From the NCBI GenBank assembly GCA_013215025.1, contig JABSRR010000001.1:28009-47636 (forward strand): DNA of 19,628 nucleotides. Direction: 5' to 3'. How positions within the stretch are numbered: the first letter of the stretch is position 1; each line of letters begins with the position of its first letter. Source of the stretch: Pseudomonadales bacterium (GTDB lineage Bacteria; Pseudomonadota; Gammaproteobacteria; Pseudomonadales; DT-91). A model generated the notes under the pieces. That model ran no database searches. It was not told the origin of the DNA and was given only the letters and a program-made list of their open reading frames with translations. Positions 1 to 19,181 of the stretch are shown here, piece by piece. Position numbers and translations under genes: made by a program.

Positions 1-243
1 CTGCATACGTAAGCCAGCTACTAAGTCTTCGCGAATACGGTGTGCCTGCCATGAATTCCGCTCATCACGAGACTCCCAGGCTTGCACTGCGCGCTGAACC
101 GAGCTTTTGTGCGAAAGATTAAAATAAGCAATACGCTCTAAAATAAACAGCCACAATAAAAATATGACAATCGAGATGGCGTACAATACGTCGCCACCAC
201 GCTCCATAAACAAGTAGACGGGTTCTGATACGGACTCAATCAT
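1..243 (-). CDS. exbB: ExbB-type MotA/TolQ/ExbB proton channel subunit, second copy (C-terminus off the window)
   Basis: The first 81 codons of a small ExbB-family inner-membrane proton-channel protein; the rest lies beyond the left edge. The start MIESVSEPVYLFMERGGDVL is followed by one hydrophobic helix (about residues 21-38, ending WLFILERIAYF). This is the usual ExbB/TolQ layout of a short periplasmic N-terminus, first membrane helix, then a charged cytoplasmic domain. The ATG at 241-243 lies 12 bases after the stop of the larger ExbB gene, so the two are almost certainly co-transcribed. In known TonB2-type clusters this gene is the true ExbB and is followed by exbD, tonB and a TPR gene, so those are expected just outside. 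Family assignment is by motif and context only, because the conserved second and third helices are not visible. Confidence 0.85.
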   Translation of the reverse strand, partial: MIESVSEPVYLFMERGGDVLYAISIVIFLLWLFILERIAYFNLSHKSSVQRAVQAWESRDERNSWQAHRIREDLVAGLRMQ

Positions 244-255
244 AATTAATCCGTG

Positions 256-1653
256 CTATGCAGCAACTGGAGCCGCTTTAAGGCCTTCTGACATTTCTGA
301 CTTACGTGCCAAAATGCCAGTTGCACGCTCATCAAGAATAACAATTAAGGCGCGTGAACGATTATTTGCCATGGTATGAAGAAATACACAAGGGATCGCT
401 GCAACCAATCCAAGTACGGTAGTGATTAAGGCTTGAGAAATACCGCCAGCCATTAATTTAGGATCACCTGTGCCGAATAAAGACATTGTCTCAAACACGT
501 CGATCATACCGGTTACCGTTCCCAAAAGACCAAGCAGTGGTGCTACTACTGAAATAATCTTAATCCAGTTTATACCTTTAGTTAACTTAGGTACTTCAGC
601 TGAGACAGCTTCAGCTAAATGCAGCTCTAGGGTTTCTACATCGGCCTGTTGATGTTTTTGGTAAACCGCCATTAAACGACCCAATGCATTATTACTGTTA
701 GCGGTGTCAGCAGACATTTGTTTAGTAATGCGGCCTGATTCGGCAGCTAAAACAAACATACGATAGATGGCTAAGGCGATACCAAATGTTGCTAGCGCTA
801 AAATAATATAACCAACAATACCACCTTGATCGATACGCTCCATTAAGGTGGCAGACTGTCCCTTAATTTTTAATAGCTGGCCGCGTGATGGATCTATCCA
901 AAAGCCAGTTAAACCATCAACAGCAGACTCTAAATCAGCCGCTGGACCGTTATAACGAGAACCCGGTTGCGACGCTAACTCAACCAGTTTTTTCGCCTCA
1001 AAATCATACACTAAGTACTGGCCATCACTGATCGCATTAAAACTACCTACACGAACAACGGGCTTATTCACTGTATCGCCAGAAGGCAAAACCACATCAG
1101 CATTATATTGCGAGATTTTGCCGGCAAAGGTCATCTCGCGTTGCATTTCAAACCATAATTTTTCAAGCTCTGTCATCGAAGGGAGTTCTGACGACGAACC
1201 AGCCTTGCTAATTAAGCTCTTCAAGAAAGCTTCTCGACCAGGTATCTGAGATGAAATAATTGAGCCCTCAAAAATGCCTTGGGTATCACCCGCCACCTGT
1301 TGCAACACACCAAATAATTCTTTTAAAGAACCCAAACGTTCGTTTAGACGCGCTTGCTCATCAGCCAACTTAATTTCATTGGCAGCAAACATTTGCTCTT
1401 TTTGAGAGCTTAAGTTTTCAAGGCGCGTACGCTCAGCTTTTTCACTACTCAACAGACTTTGCTGCTGTTTTTTGTCCGCTAAAAAACGCTGCATACGCGC
1501 GTTATATTCTTTATTGTCCTGCGCCTGCCCTTTTTGTACCAGATTTAAAAGCTGGTCAAGATCGAGAGCCTGAGACTGAACCACCGATACTGACATCGAT
1601 AGCGCAAGCAAGCTTGAGCTTGCTAAAATAGAAAAAAGTTTTCTCATCTTCAT
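256..1653 (-). CDS. Large TtpC-like ExbB protein with periplasmic coiled-coil extension
   Basis: A 465-residue MotA/TolQ/ExbB-family protein with an N-terminal periplasmic extension. It has a signal peptide (about 1-29, cut after VVQSQA), a charged coiled coil (about 45-115), a globular periplasmic part (about 120-275), a first membrane helix (278-303), and the ExbB/TolQ core with helices at about 361-384 (APLLGLLGTVTGMIDVF) and 405-427 (GISQALITTVLGLVAAIPC). This is the architecture of TtpC of Vibrio TonB2 systems, where it is needed alongside normal ExbB/ExbD/TonB for energised uptake. The ATG at 1651-1653 has an AAAGGCGG ribosome site. It lies 15 bases downstream of the DUF3450 gene and 12 bases upstream of the next exbB. 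A Pho-box promoter ahead of the DUF3450 gene should drive all three. Family assignment is secure; the role in this particular uptake system is inferred. Confidence 0.92.
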   Translation of the reverse strand: MKMRKLFSILASSSLLALSMSVSVVQSQALDLDQLLNLVQKGQAQDNKEYNARMQRFLADKKQQQSLLSSEKAERTRLENLSSQKEQMFAANEIKLADEQARLNERLGSLKELFGVLQQVAGDTQGIFEGSIISSQIPGREAFLKSLISKAGSSSELPSMTELEKLWFEMQREMTFAGKISQYNADVVLPSGDTVNKPVVRVGSFNAISDGQYLVYDFEAKKLVELASQPGSRYNGPAADLESAVDGLTGFWIDPSRGQLLKIKGQSATLMERIDQGGIVGYIILALATFGIALAIYRMFVLAAESGRITKQMSADTANSNNALGRLMAVYQKHQQADVETLELHLAEAVSAEVPKLTKGINWIKIISVVAPLLGLLGTVTGMIDVFETMSLFGTGDPKLMAGGISQALITTVLGLVAAIPCVFLHTMANNRSRALIVILDERATGILARKSEMSEGLKAAPVAA

Positions 1654-1668
1654 GTTAACCGCCTTTTA

Positions 1669-2445
1669 TTAGTTCACTGCTACAGGAGCTGCAACAGGCA
1701 CTTTAATTAAGTCAGGAGCTGCTTGCTCACGCGCAATTCGCAATGCCGTAGTTAATTTTGACTTATATTCAGAAGCCAGCGGCTCAAACTGTCTTGAGGT
1801 GTTGTTCCAGATGCCTATCGTTTGTCCATCTAGGGTTTGATACATCAATGCAACGCGACCAACGCGCAAGAAATCAACTTCTCGCTCAGCGCCATCTAAG
1901 GACATCGATGCACGATAGGTTTTGATCGTTCTACCATAATCCATTTCCTTTTGATAAGCGTCCATCACCTTACGGTACTTTTCAGCAACGCTGACATCGC
2001 TACGTCCCATAATCTCTTGCAAGGTCACGATGCGACCCTGACGAAGCTCAGCTTGGAACGGTATATCGTTCTGCACGAATGTTTCTAACGCGGCTATCAT
2101 ATTTAGCATCAACGGGGTAATTTGCCGCTCAATCAGAGTAACCTGTTTAATGCTCTGGTCGATCTGAGTCAATTCCGCCTGTTGGGCATTAAGCTGTTTA
2201 TTGAGTTGTTGAAGATATACATCAAGCCCCTCAACCTCTTTTACCACTGCACGGTACTCTTGCTCGAGCGTTTTAGTTTGGCCGTCAACGTTGTCAATTT
2301 TACGCTGCTGCGTCTGGGCGTTTTTAGCACGATTTTCGCCAGATTTGATAGCGTTATCCATGGTCGCTGCCGACACCTGAACGGCCAACATAAGTGCCGC
2401 TGTGCAGACTATTGACTTTTGCCATGCTTGTTTCAACTGATTCAT
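1669..2445 (-). CDS. DUF3450 family periplasmic coiled-coil protein of a TonB system
   Basis: A 258-residue exported protein of the DUF3450 family, which commonly precedes the large exbB gene in TonB2-type operons of marine gammaproteobacteria. It has a signal peptide (about 1-26, cut after AVQVSA), a long coiled coil (about 40-105, rich in Q, E and K), then a mixed alpha/beta region with the stretch VDFLRVGRVALMYQTLDGQ that is typical of the family. The biochemical role is unknown. The paired coiled coils in this protein and in the periplasmic extension of the next gene suggest that they may contact each other or the ExbB-ExbD-TonB motor, but this is inference. The ATG at 2443-2445 has a strong GAGGAAA ribosome site 6 bases away. 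It is the first gene of its operon and is preceded by five PhoB half-sites. Confidence 0.9.
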   Translation of the reverse strand: MNQLKQAWQKSIVCTAALMLAVQVSAATMDNAIKSGENRAKNAQTQQRKIDNVDGQTKTLEQEYRAVVKEVEGLDVYLQQLNKQLNAQQAELTQIDQSIKQVTLIERQITPLMLNMIAALETFVQNDIPFQAELRQGRIVTLQEIMGRSDVSVAEKYRKVMDAYQKEMDYGRTIKTYRASMSLDGAEREVDFLRVGRVALMYQTLDGQTIGIWNNTSRQFEPLASEYKSKLTTALRIAREQAAPDLIKVPVAAPVAVN

Positions 2446-2511
2446 GCAGTTTCCTCGTTTAAACGGTTGAGATAATTTTCAACTCGACATTAGTATTTTA
2501 AGAATGCGCAA

Positions 2512-2545
2512 AGCATAAAATTTCTATATGACAGGAATATGACAA
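2512..2545 (-). promoter_or_regulatory. Pho box with -10 hexamer, promoter of the DUF3450-exbB operon
   Basis: On the minus strand 2545-2528 reads TTGTCATATTCCTGTCAT. These are two CTGTCAT-type half-sites separated by 4 bases, so an 11-base period as in the classical Pho box. Exactly 10 bases downstream is TATGCT (2517-2512), the spacing at which PhoB replaces the -35 element. Transcription should start near 2506, about 60 bases before the DUF3450 ATG. PhoB control is inferred from the motif. Confidence 0.8.
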
Positions 2546-2562
2546 ATATCTAATTCGCATAC

Positions 2563-2595
2563 TTTTTTGACAGTTTTTTGAAAGTTTTTTGACAA
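2563..2595 (-). promoter_or_regulatory. Upstream array of three PhoB half-sites with phased A-tracts
   Basis: On the minus strand three half-sites, TTGTCAA (2595-2589), CTTTCAA (2584-2578) and CTGTCAA (2573-2567), recur with an exact 11-base period, each followed by a run of A. The array lies 21 bases upstream of the promoter-proximal Pho box and in the same orientation. Together they give five half-sites ahead of one operon. The middle repeat is the weakest match. Confidence 0.72.
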
Positions 2596-2715
2596 ACCGT
2601 CAATAACAACTTCAACGATGCCATCAAGCATTGAACATCGCATCCAAAGCTTAAATTAAGCCATTGAGTAAGTATTCGATAGTGCCAAATGACAAGCTTG
2701 CTATAGTCCAAAACC

Positions 2716-2739
2716 AAAAAAGCGGCCCTAGGGCCGCTT
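2716..2739 (-). terminator. Rho-independent terminator after the lipoprotein gene
   Basis: A GC-rich palindrome, AAGCGGCCC then TA then GGGCCGCTT (2720-2739), is followed on the minus strand by a T-run (2721-2716). It starts about 20 bases after the lipoprotein stop codon and ends that transcript before the Pho promoter region of the next operon. Confidence 0.88.
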
Positions 2740-2759
2740 AGTAACTTTCACAGGATAAG

Positions 2760-4196
2760 TTATGGAACTTGGACCGTTCCTGGCAATGTCCAACTAGACC
2801 ACCAATCACGGTCAGCAACTGCCGTGTTCGGGTTTACTGCACCAGCGTAATTGGTTGATTCAAATGTAAAACCTGAACCATTCGCGACAGCTGTTGGAAC
2901 TACGTCAACAGACAATTGCGCAGCAGCATCTGTCGCAGCGAAAGCAGCGTCAAAAGCTAAGGCAGCGTTACCTGCTTTCTGACTCACCGTATCTTGCCCT
3001 GCAGGATTTGGAAGAGCACCAGTACCAGATGCATCTTTAGTTGCTTTAAAAGCAAAGAAATCGCCGTCTGTACCACAGTCGCCGACAAACACATTATTGA
3101 ATGTTACATCTGTTGCTTCATCTTGGCCGTTATCAACGCGCAAGCAATCACCGTTATAGTTTGAGATTACCGTGTTATGTAACTGCACCGTCAAATCTCC
3201 ACGCAAACGCACTGCAGGCTCAGCTTTATCGCCTGAAGTAATATCAGAACCAACAATAGTGATATTTGACAATACAGCTTCAGTTGCCTTAACGGCTTCA
3301 TCGTCAGAAGAGTTGGCTTCGATACCACGCGGATCATTTGAACCTTGAGGCTCGGTTGCTGATGGGTTCTTTTGGATGATCGCGAATTGAATGTTGCCTT
3401 TATAGCCTTCATCAAAATCAATATCGTCGTCATCATTGCCGGTTAATACTAAATATTTTGCGTTGGCCGTGCCACCAAACCATTCAACACCATCATCTAG
3501 GTTATTGTGAACTTGAATATATTCAAGCACAGTTTTATGGCCAACGCCTTGAAGCGTTAAACCATTCACTTCATTATCAGCAACAGCCACTTTACCAGCT
3601 TCAGCAATTCGTACGTATTTGATCACACCAGAGTCATCAGCTGGATTATCACCGCCAAAAAACTTAACTGTTTCATCACCGCCCTCACCCTGAACATTAC
3701 AGAAGCCTGAGTCAGCACATAAAGCGTTAGAGCCTGGTGCATAATGTGGCGCAAAACCTTGCACTATAATACCGCCCCATTCACCTAAGCCATCAAAGTC
3801 ATCATCGAGCTGCGAGCTGAATGTGATTGGCGCATCAGCCGTTCCTTCAGCATTGATTTTTGATCCACGGTTTATGATTAGTGTACCATCGCTGTCAGCA
3901 ACAATATTTGTGCCAGGCTCAATGGTCAAAGTCACATTGTTAGCATTTGTTATATCAGCAAGATTTTCTATTCGGTTAGAACCATCGCCTACATTCACAA
4001 CACCCTGCAAGATCCATGTGCGATCGCTAGTGAGTGTTTTATTTTCAAGAATATTCCCAGATATAACCTCAGTTTCTGGTACTACTGGAGTAACTGGCTC
4101 TGGAGAAGAACTGCTACCGCCACCACCACCGCCGCCACACGCTGTAAGTAACGCTGCTGAACACGCCATAGACAAAGTCAACATTTTATATTTCAT
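2760..4196 (-). CDS. Outer-membrane lipoprotein with predicted right-handed beta-helix, Pho-locus partner of the TonB receptor
   Basis: A 478-residue lipoprotein of unknown function. The N-terminus has a signal sequence with lipobox LLTAC (Cys20). Gly-rich and Ser/Pro-rich spacers follow (about 21-40), a tether typical of surface-displayed lipoproteins. There is no Asp after the Cys, consistent with outer-membrane sorting. The body (about 45-400) has repeated short strands with DG/GN turns, as in right-handed parallel beta-helices. Conserved-looking blocks are GEWGGIIVQG, DNPADDSGVIKYVRIAEAG, NEVNGLTLQGVG, LDDGVEWFGG and the very acidic NDDDDIDFDEGYKGN (about 254-268), a plausible cation-binding site. 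From memory, similar blocks occur in Bacteroidota proteins encoded next to TonB receptors. I chose ATG 4196 (AAGAG ribosome site) over a TTG two codons upstream. It sits between two terminators, so it is its own unit. No catalytic motif was recognised. Confidence 0.85.
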   Translation of the reverse strand: MKYKMLTLSMACSAALLTACGGGGGGGSSSSPEPVTPVVPETEVISGNILENKTLTSDRTWILQGVVNVGDGSNRIENLADITNANNVTLTIEPGTNIVADSDGTLIINRGSKINAEGTADAPITFSSQLDDDFDGLGEWGGIIVQGFAPHYAPGSNALCADSGFCNVQGEGGDETVKFFGGDNPADDSGVIKYVRIAEAGKVAVADNEVNGLTLQGVGHKTVLEYIQVHNNLDDGVEWFGGTANAKYLVLTGNDDDDIDFDEGYKGNIQFAIIQKNPSATEPQGSNDPRGIEANSSDDEAVKATEAVLSNITIVGSDITSGDKAEPAVRLRGDLTVQLHNTVISNYNGDCLRVDNGQDEATDVTFNNVFVGDCGTDGDFFAFKATKDASGTGALPNPAGQDTVSQKAGNAALAFDAAFAATDAAAQLSVDVVPTAVANGSGFTFESTNYAGAVNPNTAVADRDWWSSWTLPGTVQVP

Positions 4197-4262
4197 ATTC
4201 AAATTCTCTTAATTCAAACTCTTGTTAAAGGATGTTCTTAAATCTGCAAGTGAAACTCAGGC

Positions 4263-4300
4263 AAAAAAAAGACTCATCTGGCAGAAGCACAGATGAGTCT
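4263..4300 (-). terminator. Rho-independent terminator after the TonB-dependent receptor gene
   Basis: On the minus strand a perfect 11-bp stem, AGACTCATCTG (4300-4290) and CAGATGAGTCT (4280-4270), closes a 9-base loop and is followed by eight Ts (4270-4263). It lies about 58 bases after the receptor stop and about 67 bases before the lipoprotein ATG. The 5' arm may overlap the start of a Pho-box-driven lipoprotein transcript. Confidence 0.92.
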
Positions 4301-4316
4301 AGTTTCGCATTACAAT

Positions 4317-4334
4317 GTGACAGAATTTTTACAA
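4317..4334 (-). promoter_or_regulatory. Pho-box-like site ahead of the lipoprotein gene
   Basis: On the minus strand 4334-4317 reads TTGTAAAAATTCTGTCAC. The downstream half-site is good and the upstream one is degenerate, at the correct 11-base period. No strong -10 lies exactly 10 bases downstream; TAGACT (4301-4296) is the best candidate at 15 bases. The site is between the receptor stop and its terminator. Confidence 0.5.
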
Positions 4335-4357
4335 TAAAATGATGCTTTTATGAAAGT

Positions 4358-7300
4358 TTAAAACTTCCAGCTAACATCTGCTTTGAAGCGTGCTCCATTT
4401 CTATAAGACTCAATAACATTACCATCGCGTGAATATGAAACTTTTTCATCAGTTAAATTTTCAATCTTTGCACCAAATGATAAATCTTCAGTGAAATCCC
4501 ACTTATATAGTAGATCGAGCGTTAATCGTCCATCTTCTATACGATCATCGCCATTGCGTTCAATTTTATAGATTCGGTCATCAAAATAATTAGCCACCAA
4601 AGTAAACGACTGCATATGCTCAAACTCATCAAAGCCAAACTGAATATTTGCTAGCACATCCGATTGACCTTGAAGTTCTCGCTTAGATTGACCTTCGCCA
4701 AATTCCGATTCTTGGCTTAATGTCACCTCAGAATCAATCAAAGCTATATTACCGCCGACAAAGCCTGCCCAATTATCATTAATATCGTAGCCAAGCTTAC
4801 CATCAATTTCTAAACCCAAGATGGTTGCAGACTCTTGATTGCGAAATGTATAGCCATCACAGCTTCTGCCAGAGCAAGAAGGAAGAACTGTTTTCTCAAC
4901 AGGGCTATCAATATCTTTGTAGAAGAAACCTGCTGATATACTATCTTCATCATTGAGATAGTATTCCAAGCGTAGATCAAAGTTATCAATGAATGATGCC
5001 TCTAAAGAAGGTGAGCCAGAAACTTCTTCGTCAGTATCGGGATCAAAGAAAATGGTATCCGAACGCTCAACCAACTCTGGTCTAGATAGTGTTTGTGACC
5101 AACCGGCTCGCAATTGAAGTTCATCGCCTAACATTCGGTAAGTTGCCGCTATCATCGGCAACAACTCATCAGTTTCAAAGCTTGCGTCGTCAGCAGACGA
5201 ATAGATATATTTGATCTCCTGCGTAGTAGACTCATTTCTAGCACCAAAGATAATGTCTAAATTTTCCTTATATGTGCTTAACACTGAAAAATAAACGGCA
5301 TTGGTATCATCTACACCATCATAGGAGTCTGTCGGCGAGGTATTGACATCTAGCACCCATACACCGGCATCAAAATTTTCAGGTACAAAAGCTTGCTCAA
5401 ACGTAATACCCGTAGTGCTGAATGTTTGATCATTTTTTCTAAAACCAAAACGCGCCACTCTCACTTCACGGTCTTTTGCAGAAAAATAAACGCCTATATT
5501 GAACGTTGATCGTAAATCATCATGCCATTGATAATCCTGAAAGCTATAGTCAAGCCTTGCGTCTAAGGAGTTCTGCTCCATCTCAGAAAATTTTCGCTCT
5601 AACGGGCCATTTACTGCGACACCGTTGATATAGTCATAGCTTCTTCTATCAGGTTGATCGCGCGTTGATTGTGCATAGGCAATATGCCAATCCAACGCTT
5701 GATTACCATCACCAAGTGCATGCTTGCCACCAAAGCGCTGCTGAATAAACTGGCGCTCAGTCCATTGTAAAATAGCAGTCTCCAGAGATTTACCATCTGC
5801 CGACTCAACCCCTTTTTCAAGCTTAGTTAAATCTTCAGATTTGCGTAAAATCGTCGTTTTTGAAGACCAATCGTTATTACCATCGCTGAAGTCAACCGCG
5901 AGATAGCCGGTCAAGTCAATTTTTTGCTTCGAACGCTGGTAAGTAAAATTACCCTCTCGCGGGTCATTAATTTCGGCATCTTGACGACTTTCCCACTGAT
6001 TTTTATACGCGAAAGCTGAATAAACGCCTAATTCACCCTGATCTAACTCCCACAGCGATGCATTAGCAACAGAAAATTCTATATCAGGACCTGCAGTCTT
6101 TTCGTCAACATCATAAATATTCTTAAACTTTTTACCTAGCTGGCTCGCTTCTTCAGGTGAAACACTTCCGGGTGAACAGAATGAACCACTGCAAACACTA
6201 AAAACATCAGGGCGACCAAAATCAGTCGCTGCATCAACTGCACTGGGCAGTTCGCGCGTACCATCGTCGAAGCCAAGGCTATTGTCGCCGCCATCATAGG
6301 TGGCAATATCATCACCGGTCACACCTGCTACATAAGCCATGCCAAACTTTAACTGGGTATACTCTTCATCCGGCATACCACGAGTAACCAAGTTAATTGA
6401 ACCACCGGTGCTATCGCCAGGCAATTCGGGAGAAAAACCTTTTTTAATCTCAATCGTTTTTAGTACTGATGCGGGGAAAATATCCAATGACACCTCACGT
6501 TTTATGGGGTCAGTTGAAGGGATAAGACCGTTGTTCATAGTGGTAGAGTTGTAACGACCTTGTAAGCCCCTAACTACAGCAAATTCTCCATCAGAGATGG
6601 ATACACCTGAAACGCGTTTTAATGCTGATGCAGCTGATGAATCACCAAAGCGTGCAAATTGCTCTGCACCTATCGCATCTAATACGGTGGAGGCATCTCG
6701 TTCAGAGGTCGTCGCAGACTGCGGCACATAAGAACCTACTGCAACCACCTCTTCAATCAGCTCGTCACCCGACAAACTCATGGTTAAATCAACACGTGTA
6801 GCTGCACCTGAGAGCACATGTAAATTATTCAAACTACGATTACCGTAGTTTGGGTGTGCAACGGTTAAATCGTATTGACCACGCGGAATCTCTAGAACGA
6901 AGGCACCGTCTTCATTGGTAGTAGTGGCTATATCAGTACCGTTAACAGATATACGCGCATCACTGACTGGCCCGGCCGTTTCTTCTGATGTCAAAATACC
7001 GGCAAATTGGCCTACCGCAGCTGCTTCTTCACTGCCCGGCATATAGGTTGCGACATCAAACATTGCCTCGCCGCCAATGATCTCGACATTGATTTCGGCA
7101 TTTTGCTGATCATTGTCTAGCGTGAAATTAAAATCGCCCAGCCACTCACCATACTCTGAAATTTCTACGGTCTGCTGGCCTTCTGCAAGGTCAAAGACAA
7201 TAAAGCCGTTTTGCTTCAACAGTTTTTTTTCACCGTTTACGGTAATCGCCATATTGGATACAGCCGCACCATCTTCGGTGACATAGAATACGGCTTCGCC

Positions 7301-7360
7301 TGCTGAAGCCCAGTAAGATGAGGCTAACAACATTGATGCCATCAGTGGCTTTAACTTCAT
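4358..7360 (-). CDS. TonB-dependent outer-membrane receptor, predicted phosphate-starvation regulated
   Basis: A 1000-residue TonB-dependent receptor that should carry a substrate through the outer membrane using energy from ExbB/ExbD/TonB. It has a signal peptide (1-20, cut after YWASA), a beta-rich N-terminal domain (about 21-115), a carboxypeptidase-regulatory-like beta-sandwich (about 118-195), the TonB box EEVVAVG (203-209), the plug (about 218-328, with ALKRVSGVSISDGEFAVVRG and PGDSTGGSINLVTRG), then a 22-strand-type barrel ending in aromatic KADVSWKF. Predicted external loops carry two similar Cys pairs, CSGSFC (390-395) and CSGRSC (829-834). The ATG at 7358-7360 has an AGGTG ribosome site. 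Three PhoB half-sites lie upstream and no Fur box was seen, which points away from iron and toward a phosphorus compound. That substrate class is inference from regulation alone; the actual ligand is unknown. Confidence 0.95.
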   Translation of the reverse strand: MKLKPLMASMLLASSYWASAGEAVFYVTEDGAAVSNMAITVNGEKKLLKQNGFIVFDLAEGQQTVEISEYGEWLGDFNFTLDNDQQNAEINVEIIGGEAMFDVATYMPGSEEAAAVGQFAGILTSEETAGPVSDARISVNGTDIATTTNEDGAFVLEIPRGQYDLTVAHPNYGNRSLNNLHVLSGAATRVDLTMSLSGDELIEEVVAVGSYVPQSATTSERDASTVLDAIGAEQFARFGDSSAASALKRVSGVSISDGEFAVVRGLQGRYNSTTMNNGLIPSTDPIKREVSLDIFPASVLKTIEIKKGFSPELPGDSTGGSINLVTRGMPDEEYTQLKFGMAYVAGVTGDDIATYDGGDNSLGFDDGTRELPSAVDAATDFGRPDVFSVCSGSFCSPGSVSPEEASQLGKKFKNIYDVDEKTAGPDIEFSVANASLWELDQGELGVYSAFAYKNQWESRQDAEINDPREGNFTYQRSKQKIDLTGYLAVDFSDGNNDWSSKTTILRKSEDLTKLEKGVESADGKSLETAILQWTERQFIQQRFGGKHALGDGNQALDWHIAYAQSTRDQPDRRSYDYINGVAVNGPLERKFSEMEQNSLDARLDYSFQDYQWHDDLRSTFNIGVYFSAKDREVRVARFGFRKNDQTFSTTGITFEQAFVPENFDAGVWVLDVNTSPTDSYDGVDDTNAVYFSVLSTYKENLDIIFGARNESTTQEIKYIYSSADDASFETDELLPMIAATYRMLGDELQLRAGWSQTLSRPELVERSDTIFFDPDTDEEVSGSPSLEASFIDNFDLRLEYYLNDEDSISAGFFYKDIDSPVEKTVLPSCSGRSCDGYTFRNQESATILGLEIDGKLGYDINDNWAGFVGGNIALIDSEVTLSQESEFGEGQSKRELQGQSDVLANIQFGFDEFEHMQSFTLVANYFDDRIYKIERNGDDRIEDGRLTLDLLYKWDFTEDLSFGAKIENLTDEKVSYSRDGNVIESYRNGARFKADVSWKF

Positions 7361-7423
7361 TTTTTACACCTATAGTCAGTTTGCATTGCAGGAGCCGCAG
7401 CATTACGCTGTGGTCATCGGATT

Positions 7424-7470
7424 AATGTAAGCAGCAAACTTACTACAGTTTTGTGACAATAAAATGACAG
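7424..7470 (-). promoter_or_regulatory. Triple Pho-box promoter of the TonB-dependent receptor
   Basis: On the minus strand the half-sites CTGTCAT (7470-7464), TTGTCAC (7459-7453) and CTGTAGT (7448-7442) recur every 11 bases. The first two match the PhoB consensus closely and the third partially. A -10-like TACATT lies at 7429-7424. This leaves a leader of roughly 55 bases before the receptor ATG. Confidence 0.8.
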
Positions 7471-7496
7471 CGTCGGTGCTTATTAAGACAATTGAT

Positions 7497-7521
7497 ACGC
7501 TGACTGTTAATCAATCAGCGT
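7497..7521 (-). other. Hairpin after the small secreted-protein gene
   Basis: An inverted repeat ACGCTGA / TCAGCGT (7-bp stem, 11-base loop) lies 23 bases downstream of the small gene's stop and just upstream of the receptor's Pho boxes. No T-run follows on either strand, so it may be a weak or factor-dependent terminator or an mRNA 3'-end stabiliser. Confidence 0.45.
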
Positions 7522-7543
7522 CAAAGAGATAGCTTAAAGGGTT

Positions 7544-7855
7544 TTATTCACCATACAGGTCAGCATTCACAGCATCCCAATCATAAACCGTTTTATATCC
7601 ACTGCTTGTTTTCACAGCAAGCTTATAGACCTCAAACATTTCTTGATTCGACACACCATGAACCCGAACACTTGCGCCAGTATGTAGCATATCGGCATCG
7701 AAGCTAATAACATCTAACTTTATACTTTTGTTACTGGTGTTAACAAAATATGCACCCTCAGCGCGAACAAATTCGCCTTCATGTATTTGCTGATTGGCAT
7801 GTGCTGTGATGCTTAGTAAAGTGAGCAAACACAAGCTTAGATATCTAACGCGCAT
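7544..7855 (-). CDS. Small secreted protein of unknown function, Pho-box preceded
   Basis: A 103-residue protein with a clear signal peptide (1-20, basic MRVR start, hydrophobic core, cut after ITAHA). The mature part of about 83 residues has no cysteine and no membrane segment. Alternating strands and the pattern GASVRVHGVSNQEMFEVYKLAV are loosely reminiscent of small periplasmic OB-fold proteins, but I do not recognise a family. The ATG at 7853-7855 has an AGGAG ribosome site 7 bases away, so the start is firm. It lies upstream of and in the same direction as the TonB receptor, separated by 183 bases holding a hairpin and the receptor's own Pho promoter. With its own Pho box it probably belongs to the same phosphate-starvation response. 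A role as a periplasmic binding or processing partner is speculation. Confidence 0.8.
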   Translation of the reverse strand: MRVRYLSLCLLTLLSITAHANQQIHEGEFVRAEGAYFVNTSNKSIKLDVISFDADMLHTGASVRVHGVSNQEMFEVYKLAVKTSSGYKTVYDWDAVNADLYGE

Positions 7856-7916
7856 AAAATACTCCTAATATGTTTTAATACAGAAGAAAACTATAAACGC
7901 TTAAGATGAAAATTTG

Positions 7917-7934
7917 ATGGCAGTTTTGTGACAA
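7917..7934 (-). promoter_or_regulatory. Pho box ahead of the small secreted-protein gene
   Basis: On the minus strand 7934-7917 reads TTGTCACAAAACTGCCAT, two half-sites at an 11-base period with one mismatch from CTGTCAT in the second. It ends about 60 bases upstream of the ATG. The expected -10 position holds only a weak TCTTAA (7906-7901). Confidence 0.7.
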
Positions 7935-15901: not shown

Positions 15902-17170
15902 CTAGGCTGCGATTGAAAAAACCTGCTTAAAGACAAAAAACAAAGCAATAGACAATAAACCACCGGCGGGCAGCGTAATCAGCCATGAAGTAAAAATTGT
16001 AGCAACCACACGTAGATCAATTGCACCGATGCCGCGCGCTAAACCCACGCCAAGCACCGCGCCAACCAAGGTGTGGGTGGTAGAAACGGGAATACCCGTT
16101 GCCGACGCAAGCACCACCGTTGATGCGGCAGCAAGTTCGGCAGCAAAGCCACGCGAGGGGGTGAGCTCGGTAATTTTACCACCTATTGTGGCAATAACTT
16201 TGTAGCCCAAGGTCATTAAGCCAAACACGATGCCAGAGGCACCTAACAACAAGACCCATAGCGGCAAGGCAGACGTGGCTGCAATCTCGCCGCCAGATTC
16301 AATCACGCTGACAATGGCAGCAAGTGGGCCGATGGCGTTAGCGACATCATTCGAGCCGTGAGCAAAAGCCATCGCACAGGCAGTAAAAATCATTAGAATG
16401 GCAAACAGGCGTTCAACCGATTGAGCACGATGCTCACGATTTTGCGCCGGCTGGACGCGATTTAACAGCAGCTTACCAAGCACTGCGACCAAGACAGCAA
16501 CAACTACAGCCAACATCGCCGACTGCAAATAACCGAGGTCTAAGCCAACATGCTTCAGACCTTTGACAAAGGTGACCATTGAAATCGCGAAGCCAGTTAA
16601 GAACATATAAGCTGGCACATAACGCTGTGCAGCCATAAAGGGATCGTCGGCGGCCAAGATTAGCTTCTGTACTGAGCGAAAAATAACAAATGCGATACTG
16701 CCAGCCAGCAGCGGTGAGGCAACCCAACTCACAGCGATGGTGCCGATTTTAGCCCATTTAACCGCATCAACCCCGATGCCTACAGCAGCAAAGCCGACAA
16801 TAGCACCGACAATAGAATGGGTTGTCGACACCGGCCAGCCGAATTGTGTAGCCACCATCAGCCAGATAGCTGCTGCCAACAGGGCTGAAAGCATGCCATA
16901 AATTAACAGCTCTGGCTGGCCTTGAATCGCTGTCATATCAACCATACCTTTACGTATCGTTGAAGTGACTTCACCGCCCGCTAAAAATGCGCCAGCAAAC
17001 TCAAAAACCACAGCAATCATGATTGCCTGCTTGATCGTCAGCGCTTTCGATCCGACTGAGGTACCCATGGCATTTGCAACATCATTTGCACCTACTCCCC
17101 AAGCCATAAAAAAACCAAATAGGCAGGCCAAGCTTAAGAATATGATGCTGTACTGTGTCAAAAAATCCAT
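15902..17170 (-). CDS. PiT-family inorganic phosphate transporter
   Basis: A 422-residue inner-membrane permease of the PiT family, which imports metal-phosphate or phosphate with protons or sodium at low affinity. The duplicated PiT signature is clear: GANDVANAMG (27-36) and GSNDVANAIG (272-281). A paired re-entrant-loop motif is also present, PVSTTHSIVGAIVG (113-126) and PVSTTHTLVGAVLG in the second half, so both inverted repeats are intact. A short cytoplasmic linker rich in Arg, Gln and His (about 238-254) joins the halves. It is shorter than E. coli PitA (499) and of the kind paired with a DUF47 gene. The ATG at 17168-17170 has AGGA 8 bases upstream and follows the DUF47 gene by 35 bases. 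Proton versus sodium coupling cannot be told. Confidence 0.96.
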   Translation of the reverse strand: MDFLTQYSIIFLSLACLFGFFMAWGVGANDVANAMGTSVGSKALTIKQAIMIAVVFEFAGAFLAGGEVTSTIRKGMVDMTAIQGQPELLIYGMLSALLAAAIWLMVATQFGWPVSTTHSIVGAIVGFAAVGIGVDAVKWAKIGTIAVSWVASPLLAGSIAFVIFRSVQKLILAADDPFMAAQRYVPAYMFLTGFAISMVTFVKGLKHVGLDLGYLQSAMLAVVVAVLVAVLGKLLLNRVQPAQNREHRAQSVERLFAILMIFTACAMAFAHGSNDVANAIGPLAAIVSVIESGGEIAATSALPLWVLLLGASGIVFGLMTLGYKVIATIGGKITELTPSRGFAAELAAASTVVLASATGIPVSTTHTLVGAVLGVGLARGIGAIDLRVVATIFTSWLITLPAGGLLSIALFFVFKQVFSIAA

Positions 17171-17205
17171 GAGATCGTCCTAAACTCAGATAAAGCGATG
17201 CCAGC

Positions 17206-17883
17206 TTACCGCGCTACGATAATATGCACATGATCGCCCACTTTTTGTGCGCGGTCGGCCAAGTTACCAACTAACTCAATCAGCTTGTACATAAACATCA
17301 CGTCAATAGGGGGTAATTGTGCCTCTAACAACATCAGCTCATTGCGCAGCGCAACTTCTAAACCATCAGCTTCACTCTCCAACTGATCTAAACCATGAAT
17401 CAACTTCTCTACTACAGACAGTTCTGAGCCCGAAAAACCGCTAATCATTAACTGGTCGAGTTCATCGATGATCACTCTAGCCTCAAACACGACCGCCACG
17501 GCGGCTTGCACAAACATCAGCATACTTTGCTGCATCGCCTCAGGAAACACCAGTTTGCGACCAAACAACAGGCCGGCAATATCTTTAGCGCAATTGGCCA
17601 CCCGATCCTGCAAACTTAACATCGTTAATAAGTCATTTCTGGCAATCGGCATAAACAGACTGCGTGGCAAGTGCATGCGAATATCTTTCTTTTCATTGTC
17701 GGCCTTATTCTCAAAGCCGCTGATATTCAAATAGCTCTCTTCGACTGCAGGCCAATCTGCATTGAAGCTAGCTTTAAATAATACAGTCAAACCCTGTGCA
17801 GCATTTAGGCAGGAGCTCATATGCTCTTGCAGGGGGCGAATAGGTGATTGACCAAAAAGTTGTGCAATTGTTGATGCGACCAT
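17206..17883 (-). CDS. DUF47 (TIGR00153) PhoU-like regulator of the PiT transporter
   Basis: A 225-residue cytosolic helical protein of the DUF47/TIGR00153 family, distant relatives of PhoU. The N-terminal MVASTIAQLFGQSPIRPLQEHM and the C-terminal ELVGNLADRAQKVGDHVHIIVAR are typical, the latter being the helix that carries the E/D metal-binding residues in PhoU folds. These genes usually precede a PiT gene, as here (35-base gap), and are thought to modulate its activity. The ATG at 17881-17883 starts the operon. A Pho-box-like element lies about 95-110 bases upstream. Confidence 0.93.
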   Translation of the reverse strand: MVASTIAQLFGQSPIRPLQEHMSSCLNAAQGLTVLFKASFNADWPAVEESYLNISGFENKADNEKKDIRMHLPRSLFMPIARNDLLTMLSLQDRVANCAKDIAGLLFGRKLVFPEAMQQSMLMFVQAAVAVVFEARVIIDELDQLMISGFSGSELSVVEKLIHGLDQLESEADGLEVALRNELMLLEAQLPPIDVMFMYKLIELVGNLADRAQKVGDHVHIIVAR

Positions 17884-18406: not shown

Positions 18407-19117
18407 TTAGTTTATGCTGGCGGCCATTTCTTTTAAGCTATGATGACGAACGTCTTTACCCTTGACTAAATAGACCACGTGCTCGGCAATGTTTCTTGCA
18501 TGATCACCAATACGCTCTAGTGAGCGTAGCGCCCAAATAACGTTTAAGATACGTTTAATAGAGCGTGGATCTTCCATCATTACGCTCATCATTTCACGTA
18601 AAGCTGAACCGTATTCAAGGTCAACCTCTTTATCTTCAAAGGCAACCTGAACTGCTTGGTCGACATCTAAACGAGCAAACGCATCTAAGGCATCATGCAC
18701 CATTTTACCCACGTGTGCGCCCAAGTGACGGATTTCAACAAAACCTTGTGTTTCGTCGCCGCTCTCGGCAAGATTTTCTGCCTGCAGCGCGATCTTACTG
18801 GCTTCATCACCAATACGCTCTAAATCGGTGGTTACTTTAGAAATCGCTAGAACTAAGCGAAGGTCAGAGGCCGCTGGTTGACGTCGAGCAAGTATTCTTG
18901 CCACTTCTTCATCAATGGATACTTCCATTTGATTGATATTCTCATCGCTACTGCGAACCAGCTGTGCTTTATCAACATCTAAAAGGATTAGGCTTTGCAC
19001 AGCCTCACTGACTTGATGCTCAACCTGTCCGCCCATCTCCAAGGTGTGGGTGCGAACTTCGTCCAACTCTTCGTTAAACTGACGTGAAATATGATCGTTA
19101 TATAATTCTTTATCCAT
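18407..19117 (-). CDS. phoU: PhoU, negative regulator of phosphate signalling
   Basis: A 236-residue cytosolic protein of two three-helix PhoU domains (about 15-115 and 125-225). PhoU links the Pst transporter to the sensor kinase PhoR and keeps the Pho regulon off when phosphate is plentiful. Each repeat carries the metal-cluster motif: ERIGDEASKIA (100-110) and ERIGDHARNIA (201-211). I chose ATG 19117, giving MDKELYNDHISRQFNEEL like other PhoU starts. It has a GAGAG ribosome site 7 bases away. The frame is open to an ATG at 19141, which would add eight unlikely residues. It follows pstB by 136 bases containing two hairpins. Its activity should set the state of all the Pho-box promoters in this window. 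Confidence 0.97.
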   Translation of the reverse strand: MDKELYNDHISRQFNEELDEVRTHTLEMGGQVEHQVSEAVQSLILLDVDKAQLVRSSDENINQMEVSIDEEVARILARRQPAASDLRLVLAISKVTTDLERIGDEASKIALQAENLAESGDETQGFVEIRHLGAHVGKMVHDALDAFARLDVDQAVQVAFEDKEVDLEYGSALREMMSVMMEDPRSIKRILNVIWALRSLERIGDHARNIAEHVVYLVKGKDVRHHSLKEMAASIN

Positions 19118-19181
19118 AGCTTTCTCTCTTGCCAAACACATCTTGCTGATAAATGATTGCTAAAAGTTGTGTTAGCGTTAT

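Follow-up and report, generated by a model that had tools for sequence, protein, structure and literature searches.

Gene organization of the locus

Here we describe a TonB uptake locus with putative PhoB boxes in a stretch of 19,628 nucleotides (hereafter, the window; positions 28,009 to 47,636 of contig JABSRR010000001.1, assembly GCA_013215025.1) from a Pseudomonadales bacterium, the genome assembly of which (2.78 Mb in 353 contigs) is 96% complete. According to the open reading frames (ORFs), their translations and Pfam matches, the minus strand encodes, in this order, a small secreted protein, a TonB-dependent receptor, a lipoprotein, a DUF3450 protein, a MotA_ExbB protein whose periplasmic part is long, and ExbB (Table 1). 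The downstream operon was found to be complete on the flanking contig, where exbD, tonB and a gene for a TPR-like protein follow, giving the order ttpB-ttpC-exbB-exbD-tonB-ttpD (names were assigned by eye and by analogy). A preliminary description of this DNA, made from the letters alone, had read the operon as DUF3450-exbB-exbB; the DUF3450 gene and the second exbB were retained, whereas the first "exbB" encodes a TtpC-type protein, and the three genes are the ttpB-ttpC-exbB part of a six-gene machine. The same description had proposed that the locus has its own energiser, and a complete six-gene TonB machine is indeed encoded there. The genes phoU and pstB, which had been placed about 10 kb away, were found at about 10.5 kb, and pstA, pstC, pstS, a porin gene, phoR and phoB (names by eye) lie farther along the same contig and strand.

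Table 1. Positions of the genes and sequence elements in the window
Feature	Position	Strand	Basis or score
PhoB box upstream of the small ORF	7917..7934	-	score 16.5
Small secreted protein, 103 aa, orphan	7544..7855	-	ORF; preceded by PhoB box
PhoB box upstream of the TonB receptor	7453..7470	-	score 21.7; exact genome-wide core match
Overlapping site formed via a third half-site, in register	7442..7459	-	score 13.5
TonB-dependent receptor, 1000 aa, with N-terminal beta domain and CarboxypepD_reg	4358..7360	-	Pfam Plug, barrel, CarboxypepD_reg
Weaker site in register with 4317..4334, extending the array to four half-sites	4339..4356	-	score 9.0
PhoB box in the receptor-lipoprotein gap	4317..4334	-	score 14.7
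Terminator-like hairpin with T8, between box and lipoprotein gene	4263..4300	-	-20 kcal/mol
Predicted beta-helix lipoprotein, 478 aa, ElpS/FI-FIII kind	2760..4196	-	predicted structure and family profile
Degenerate half-site repeat, unconvincing as PhoB box	2567..2595	-	scores 4.2 and 10.3
PhoB box upstream of the TonB-machine operon (ttpB)	2528..2545	-	score 21.0
ttpB (DUF3450)	1669..2445	-	Pfam
ttpC, long periplasmic part and MotA_ExbB domain	256..1653	-	Pfam and gene order
exbB, first part, running past the window edge; then exbD, tonB, ttpD	1..243	-	flanking contig
phoU	18407..19141	-	ORF and translation; named by eye
pstB	from 19254	-	ORF and translation; named by eye

Putative PhoB boxes

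An 18-bp PhoB matrix was trained on the regions upstream of the pstS loci of 29 relatives, with the pstS of this genome excluded (for one of the 29 loci, L116, a wrong ORF was chosen), and a site with a matrix score of at least 14 was regarded as good. Because genes were taken to begin at the earliest start codon of their open frames, the box-to-gene distances are rough. When 67 kb of the contig was scanned on both strands, the seven highest sites were those of phoB (22.7), pstS (22.0), the receptor gene (21.7), ttpB (21.0), the porin gene (19.9), the small ORF (16.5), and the gap between the receptor and lipoprotein genes (14.7). In 3 Mb of first-order Markov background, there were four sites per Mb per strand at a score of at least 14, and none at 18 or above. 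Half-sites with an 11-base spacing were found at every place where the preliminary description had seen them; its proposal that they be scored with a PhoB matrix against background was followed here, and the sites of the locus rank with those of phoB and pstS, the repeat at 2567-2595 being the one that failed to score convincingly. The exact core TGTCAN6TGTCA was found 12 times in the whole genome versus 4 times for the reversed-pattern control. Two of the 12 belong to this locus (receptor and ttpB), and the others include those of pstS, phoB, a PPK2 kinase gene, a calcineurin-like phosphoesterase gene and a gene for another member of the lipoprotein family; at least 4 of the 12 seem unrelated.

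As for other regulation, the four intergenic regions contained no Fur-like site above shuffles (10-11 of 19 matching positions; the shuffles averaged 11.6), and iron control was rejected. A riboswitch or cobalamin element was likewise rejected, since no Rfam match was obtained in the window.

Receptor-lipoprotein pair in related genomes

The receptor was searched for in 293 genomes of the order, with matches in 123, and 40 loci were taken from the upper part of the list (not strictly the top 40; a few late rows were skipped). A lipoprotein of the same family was encoded within 400 bases of the receptor gene, on the same strand, in 37 of the 40 loci; the exceptions were L072, L074 and L079, and in the first and last of these the contig breaks off close to the receptor gene. 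Good sites were present upstream of 16 of 40 receptor genes, 11 of 37 lipoprotein genes and 7 of 7 ttpB genes, versus 4 of the 333 genes that served as controls in these loci (Fisher's test; 5e-14 for the receptor and 2e-9 for the lipoprotein genes), and 23 loci had a good site upstream of the receptor gene, the lipoprotein gene or both. PhoB-, Pst- or PhoU-like genes were located at most about 5 kb from the receptor gene in 11 of the 40 loci when weak matches were included, and in 8 at an identity of at least 50%. Homologues of the phoU of the window adjoin pstA-like genes in L068, L088 and L089, and in L168 phoB-phoR and the pair diverge from a region with sites of 17.5 and 21.4.

The lipoprotein family was detected in 57 of the 398 genomes searched in the phylum (own genome included; 6 via weak partial matches only). 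In 4 of a set of 19 loci from outside our genome (L158, L162, L171 and L172), gsp genes follow the lipoprotein and receptor genes, which is the gene order of Caulobacter. A scan of genome contigs with a single protein as query gave two Bacteroidota loci only; in one organism, Chryseobacterium sp. SN22, genes for a response regulator and a kinase run divergently from the pair (by eye), and the lipoprotein-family profile matches the Chryseobacterium protein at 5e-57.

TonB machine and its paralogues

Two further TonB systems of this kind are present in the genome, on contigs C11 and C216 (the latter cut by the contig end); the machine next to the pair is 30-48% identical to the C11 system (six genes) and 54-93% identical to the partial C216 system (five genes). 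For the comparison of paralogues, the DUF3450 (TtpB) genes of 26 genomes, most of which have the receptor pair, were collected. Forty-eight places exceeded the cut-off (one was a fragment, and two more rows were parts of TtpC), and 42 were scored; G022_C189, G104_C10, G208_1643, G287_3580 and G177_95, for which no ORF was matched by BLAST, and the fragment (G088) were omitted. A PhoB site was found upstream of all eight scored ttpB copies beside the pair (own included) and of one copy about 3 kb from the pair (L167), versus 1 of the 33 other copies (Fisher's test, 9e-8 with the own copy excluded). The own C216 copy is counted among the 33, and its missing site means little because just 63 bases upstream were assembled. 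A ninth linked copy (G022_C189, in L064), which stood outside this scoring, had only a sub-threshold site of 12.8. In the tree, one clade (support, 99/98) united the eight linked TtpBs with the C216 copy of our genome and a copy from G038; the L167 copy, on a branch with weak support, was not part of it. The contrast between linked and unlinked copies thus indicates that the energiser, and not the receptor alone, is tied to phosphate control.

Control of the locus by PhoB is therefore predicted with the support of an independently trained matrix, of the comparison with other genes and of that with paralogues. It is extremely improbable that AT-rich intergenic DNA produced the boxes by chance: the repeat at 2567-2595 is such a case, but the rank of the remaining sites beside phoB and pstS, the empty background at 18 and above, and the low counts among control genes and unlinked paralogues all speak against it.

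Structural features of the lipoprotein and the receptor

The structure model of the lipoprotein is a right-handed beta-helix (predicted local distance difference test score, 87.9), which bears out the beta-helix lipoprotein of the preliminary description. The lipobox cysteine (C20) is invariant in 35 sequences of the family, and 12 acidic residues are invariant. No match was obtained in a first Pfam scan, and a second look-up gave the label PF28492; there was no Pfam match to SusD, and the model is not SusD-like. No relative of solved structure was found by sequence in PDB, and a Foldseek search with the model gave nothing at 0.001 or better, a second look returning the general beta-helix fold only. 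Among solved structures, those closest in fold to the receptor are ordinary transporters of iron, haem and copper (TM-scores on the query side, about 0.44-0.52); this likeness reflects the general fold and is uninformative on the substrate.

Contig C1 of the same genome encodes another member of the lipoprotein family, of 582 aa (L173, 8454-10202); it is extended at the N terminus and, by eye, contains a membrane segment, and overlapping PhoB sites (19.2 and 16.5) lie upstream of its gene.

Interpretation and comparison with known systems

Pairs of this kind have been described as phosphate-responsive in other bacteria. In Flavobacterium johnsoniae, a TonB transporter and the lipoprotein FII (Fjoh_0545/0546, PUSIV) are induced by low phosphate, and FI is encoded with a transporter in PUSIII (PMC8115612); the beta-helix lipoproteins FI-FIII, likewise neighbours of TonB receptors, all respond to phosphate starvation by induction. 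The transporter lies there near a pectin-lyase-fold lipoprotein, as in our pair, and in PUSIV beside phoBR; the phylum is different, and no PhoB-linked TonB machine is mentioned in the part of the source consulted. The likeness was drawn via the Chryseobacterium pair, the arrangement of which resembles that of Fjoh_0545/0546 in the phoBR cluster (PMC8115612). In Caulobacter, the surface lipoprotein ElpS (CC0170) is induced by phosphate starvation, its gene adjoins that of the TonB receptor CC0171, and homologues of both are said in the consulted part of the source to co-occur (PMC2996285). Here too a lipoprotein gene stands beside a receptor gene, the likeness resting on the description and on profile matches in loci with the Caulobacter gene order; a type II secretion cluster follows the pair in Caulobacter, whereas ttpB-ttpC-exbB-exbD-tonB-ttpD follow here (PMC2996285). 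The Caulobacter PhoB regulon also includes various TonB receptors (PMC11208175).

From the gene content, the boxes and these precedents, we consider it likely that the locus is a PhoB-controlled uptake locus for phosphorus scavenging. The earlier proposal of phosphorus acquisition is supported by reports that pairs like this one are induced on phosphate starvation (PMC2996285, PMC8115612). In the mechanism that we propose, PhoB would bind its boxes under phosphate shortage and activate the genes of the receptor, the lipoprotein and the TtpB-TtpC-ExbB-ExbD-TonB-TtpD machine; the lipoprotein, probably located at the cell surface and perhaps in complex with the receptor, would capture, prepare or act on a phosphorus compound; the receptor, powered by the dedicated machine, would import the compound to the periplasm; and phosphate released there would be passed to PstS, the gene of which has its own PhoB box, and PstSCAB. 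As PhoX, PhoD and PhoA were not found in the incomplete assembly, a non-classical phosphatase or the uptake of an intact compound is plausible.

Several points weigh against this proposal. The box at 4317-4334 is followed after 17 bases by the terminator-like hairpin, and only then by the lipoprotein start at 4196. Because the box precedes the hairpin, expression of the lipoprotein in the window may need read-through, attenuation or another promoter; the earlier claim that every transcription unit has PhoB sites accordingly stands for the small ORF, the receptor and ttpB, and is unsure for the lipoprotein. The conservation of boxes in relatives is partial, since 17 of the 40 loci have no good site upstream of the receptor or lipoprotein gene, and the counts of loci are inflated because several are near-identical (L058/L070/L071, L066/L067 and L073/L076) and not fully independent. 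In L083, where the pair adjoins a TonB machine, there is no good site (the stretch fetched does not reach as far as ttpB), and in L064, where the pair is linked to a machine, the sites are sub-threshold (13.2 and 12.8). Moreover, CC0171 is described as constitutive, and its deletion left ElpS production unsuppressed (given in the source as data not shown; PMC2996285).

As for the hairpin in relatives, the same order of box and hairpin was found in L054 with a weak site (9.7), and in L055, L056, L070, L071, L075 and L080 the order is reversed, the best site following the terminator-like element (the sites of L055 and L080 are below 14). In the window, the box and hairpin (4263-4334) lie near the predicted transcript start and could give a very short RNA or an attenuator.

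The locus might be controlled by PhoB and yet serve a phosphorus-free substrate, such as a metal, glycan or cofactor needed at low phosphate. The iron, haem and copper transporters nearest to the receptor (general fold though it is) and the beta-helix, a fold common to many glycan-active proteins, would fit such a substrate; the linkage to phoB, pst or phoU in some relatives and the lack of a Fur-like site in the four intergenic regions do not, and in Flavobacterium three TonB transporters and two SusCD-like pairs are reported to be induced under phosphate depletion only (PMC8115612). We regard a phosphorus-free substrate as quite unlikely.

It is also unlikely, in our judgement, that the lipoprotein is mainly a released or surface enzyme or a phosphatase helper, with the receptor a sensor or minor player instead of a transport partner. 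This would agree with the type II secretion-dependent release of ElpS and its association with extracellular alkaline phosphatase activity (PMC2996285), with the gsp genes after the pair in the four loci mentioned above, with the 12 invariant acidic residues, and with the genome itself, in which PhoX, PhoD and PhoA were not found (the assembly being incomplete). On the other hand, searches of Pfam and of PDB sequences matched the lipoprotein to no enzyme, and the pairing in 37 of 40 loci together with a co-controlled energiser is easiest to understand if transport matters.

Returning to phosphorus uptake as the preferred function, the machine has two partial precedents. The TonB2 and TonB3 systems of Vibrio consist of the same six kinds of genes in the same order (the likeness is that of gene set and order); TonB2 is controlled by Fur and iron, unlike the present machine with its PhoB boxes, and for TonB3, the operon of which opens with a receptor gene, transport of iron compounds was not seen (PMC6957404). 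In Pseudomonas aeruginosa, the energiser genes exbB2-exbD2-tonB4 of the PUMA3 regulon are under PhoB and sigma-VreI, being transcribed at phosphate starvation from a pho-box promoter bound by PhoB; a type II system and the phosphatase LapA are encoded nearby, and the set is called a still uncharacterised TonB system (PMC7035377, PMC4971064). A phosphate-controlled TonB energiser as such is therefore not new. That set differs from ours in having three genes and needing sigma-VreI; in the consulted parts of these sources no ttpB, ttpC or ttpD is named, the receptor-like VreA is without a barrel, and no adjacent receptor-lipoprotein pair is mentioned (PMC7035377, PMC4971064). The single elements thus have precedents, phosphate-controlled TonB receptors included (PMC11208175, PMC8115612), and the novelty is the packaging of a PhoB-linked six-gene energiser with the pair. 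Our literature search gave no paper on PhoB, a TonB-dependent receptor and DUF3450 together, which does not show absence from print, and among the titles and abstracts listed none dealt with a PhoB-linked six-gene TonB machine, which may still be in print.

SusC carries a CarboxypepD_reg domain, as does our receptor, and the pairing of a TonB transporter with a lipoprotein partner is also like SusC/SusD; the partner here is a predicted beta-helix and not SusD. To our knowledge, the outer-membrane passage of phosphorus compounds in oligotrophs is poorly understood. A more specific proposal, which we put forward only tentatively and with more doubt than confidence, is that a clade of six-gene TonB systems is devoted to phosphorus and that PhoB turns on such a system as the private energiser of a single receptor-lipoprotein pair. 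In a cell with PhoA, PhoX and PhoD undetected, the beta-helix lipoprotein would then serve at the surface as a lid or capture protein of non-SusD type, from which the receptor takes over organic phosphorus intact. If so, some orphan TonB systems, such as TonB3 of Vibrio and TonB4 of P. aeruginosa, could be of the same sort; TonB energy would be spent on phosphorus via a dedicated phosphate-controlled motor, giving a testable substrate class for orphan systems, and a role would be offered for the lipoprotein family.

Other genes in and outside the window

The small ORF upstream of the receptor gene had no BLAST match in the loci of the 40 relatives and nothing above the Pfam cut-off; its one match in the protein collection, 98% identical and of the same length, is itself or a near copy (three candidates were scored). 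A recurrent small secreted protein (110-138 aa) is encoded beside the lipoprotein of the pair in L060, L061, L063, L073 and L076, and its gene is directly preceded in L061, L073 and L076 by a PhoB-type site, which is on the other strand. Genes for a PiT-type phosphate transporter and a PhoU-like (DUF47) protein adjoin phoU (15902-17883 of the window; by eye). The PhoB-core match of the calcineurin-like phosphoesterase lies upstream of a gene at 1567-2403 of L012, and the protein is similar, by eye, to phosphoesterases near the pair in L066 and L067; that of the PPK2 kinase lies upstream of 854-1711 of L014, and a further one upstream of a gene for a choice-of-anchor I protein (L011, 1631-3016). 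The porin with the PhoB site of 19.9 is a Porin_4 protein encoded in the phoR-pstS gap (L018, 5888-6886).

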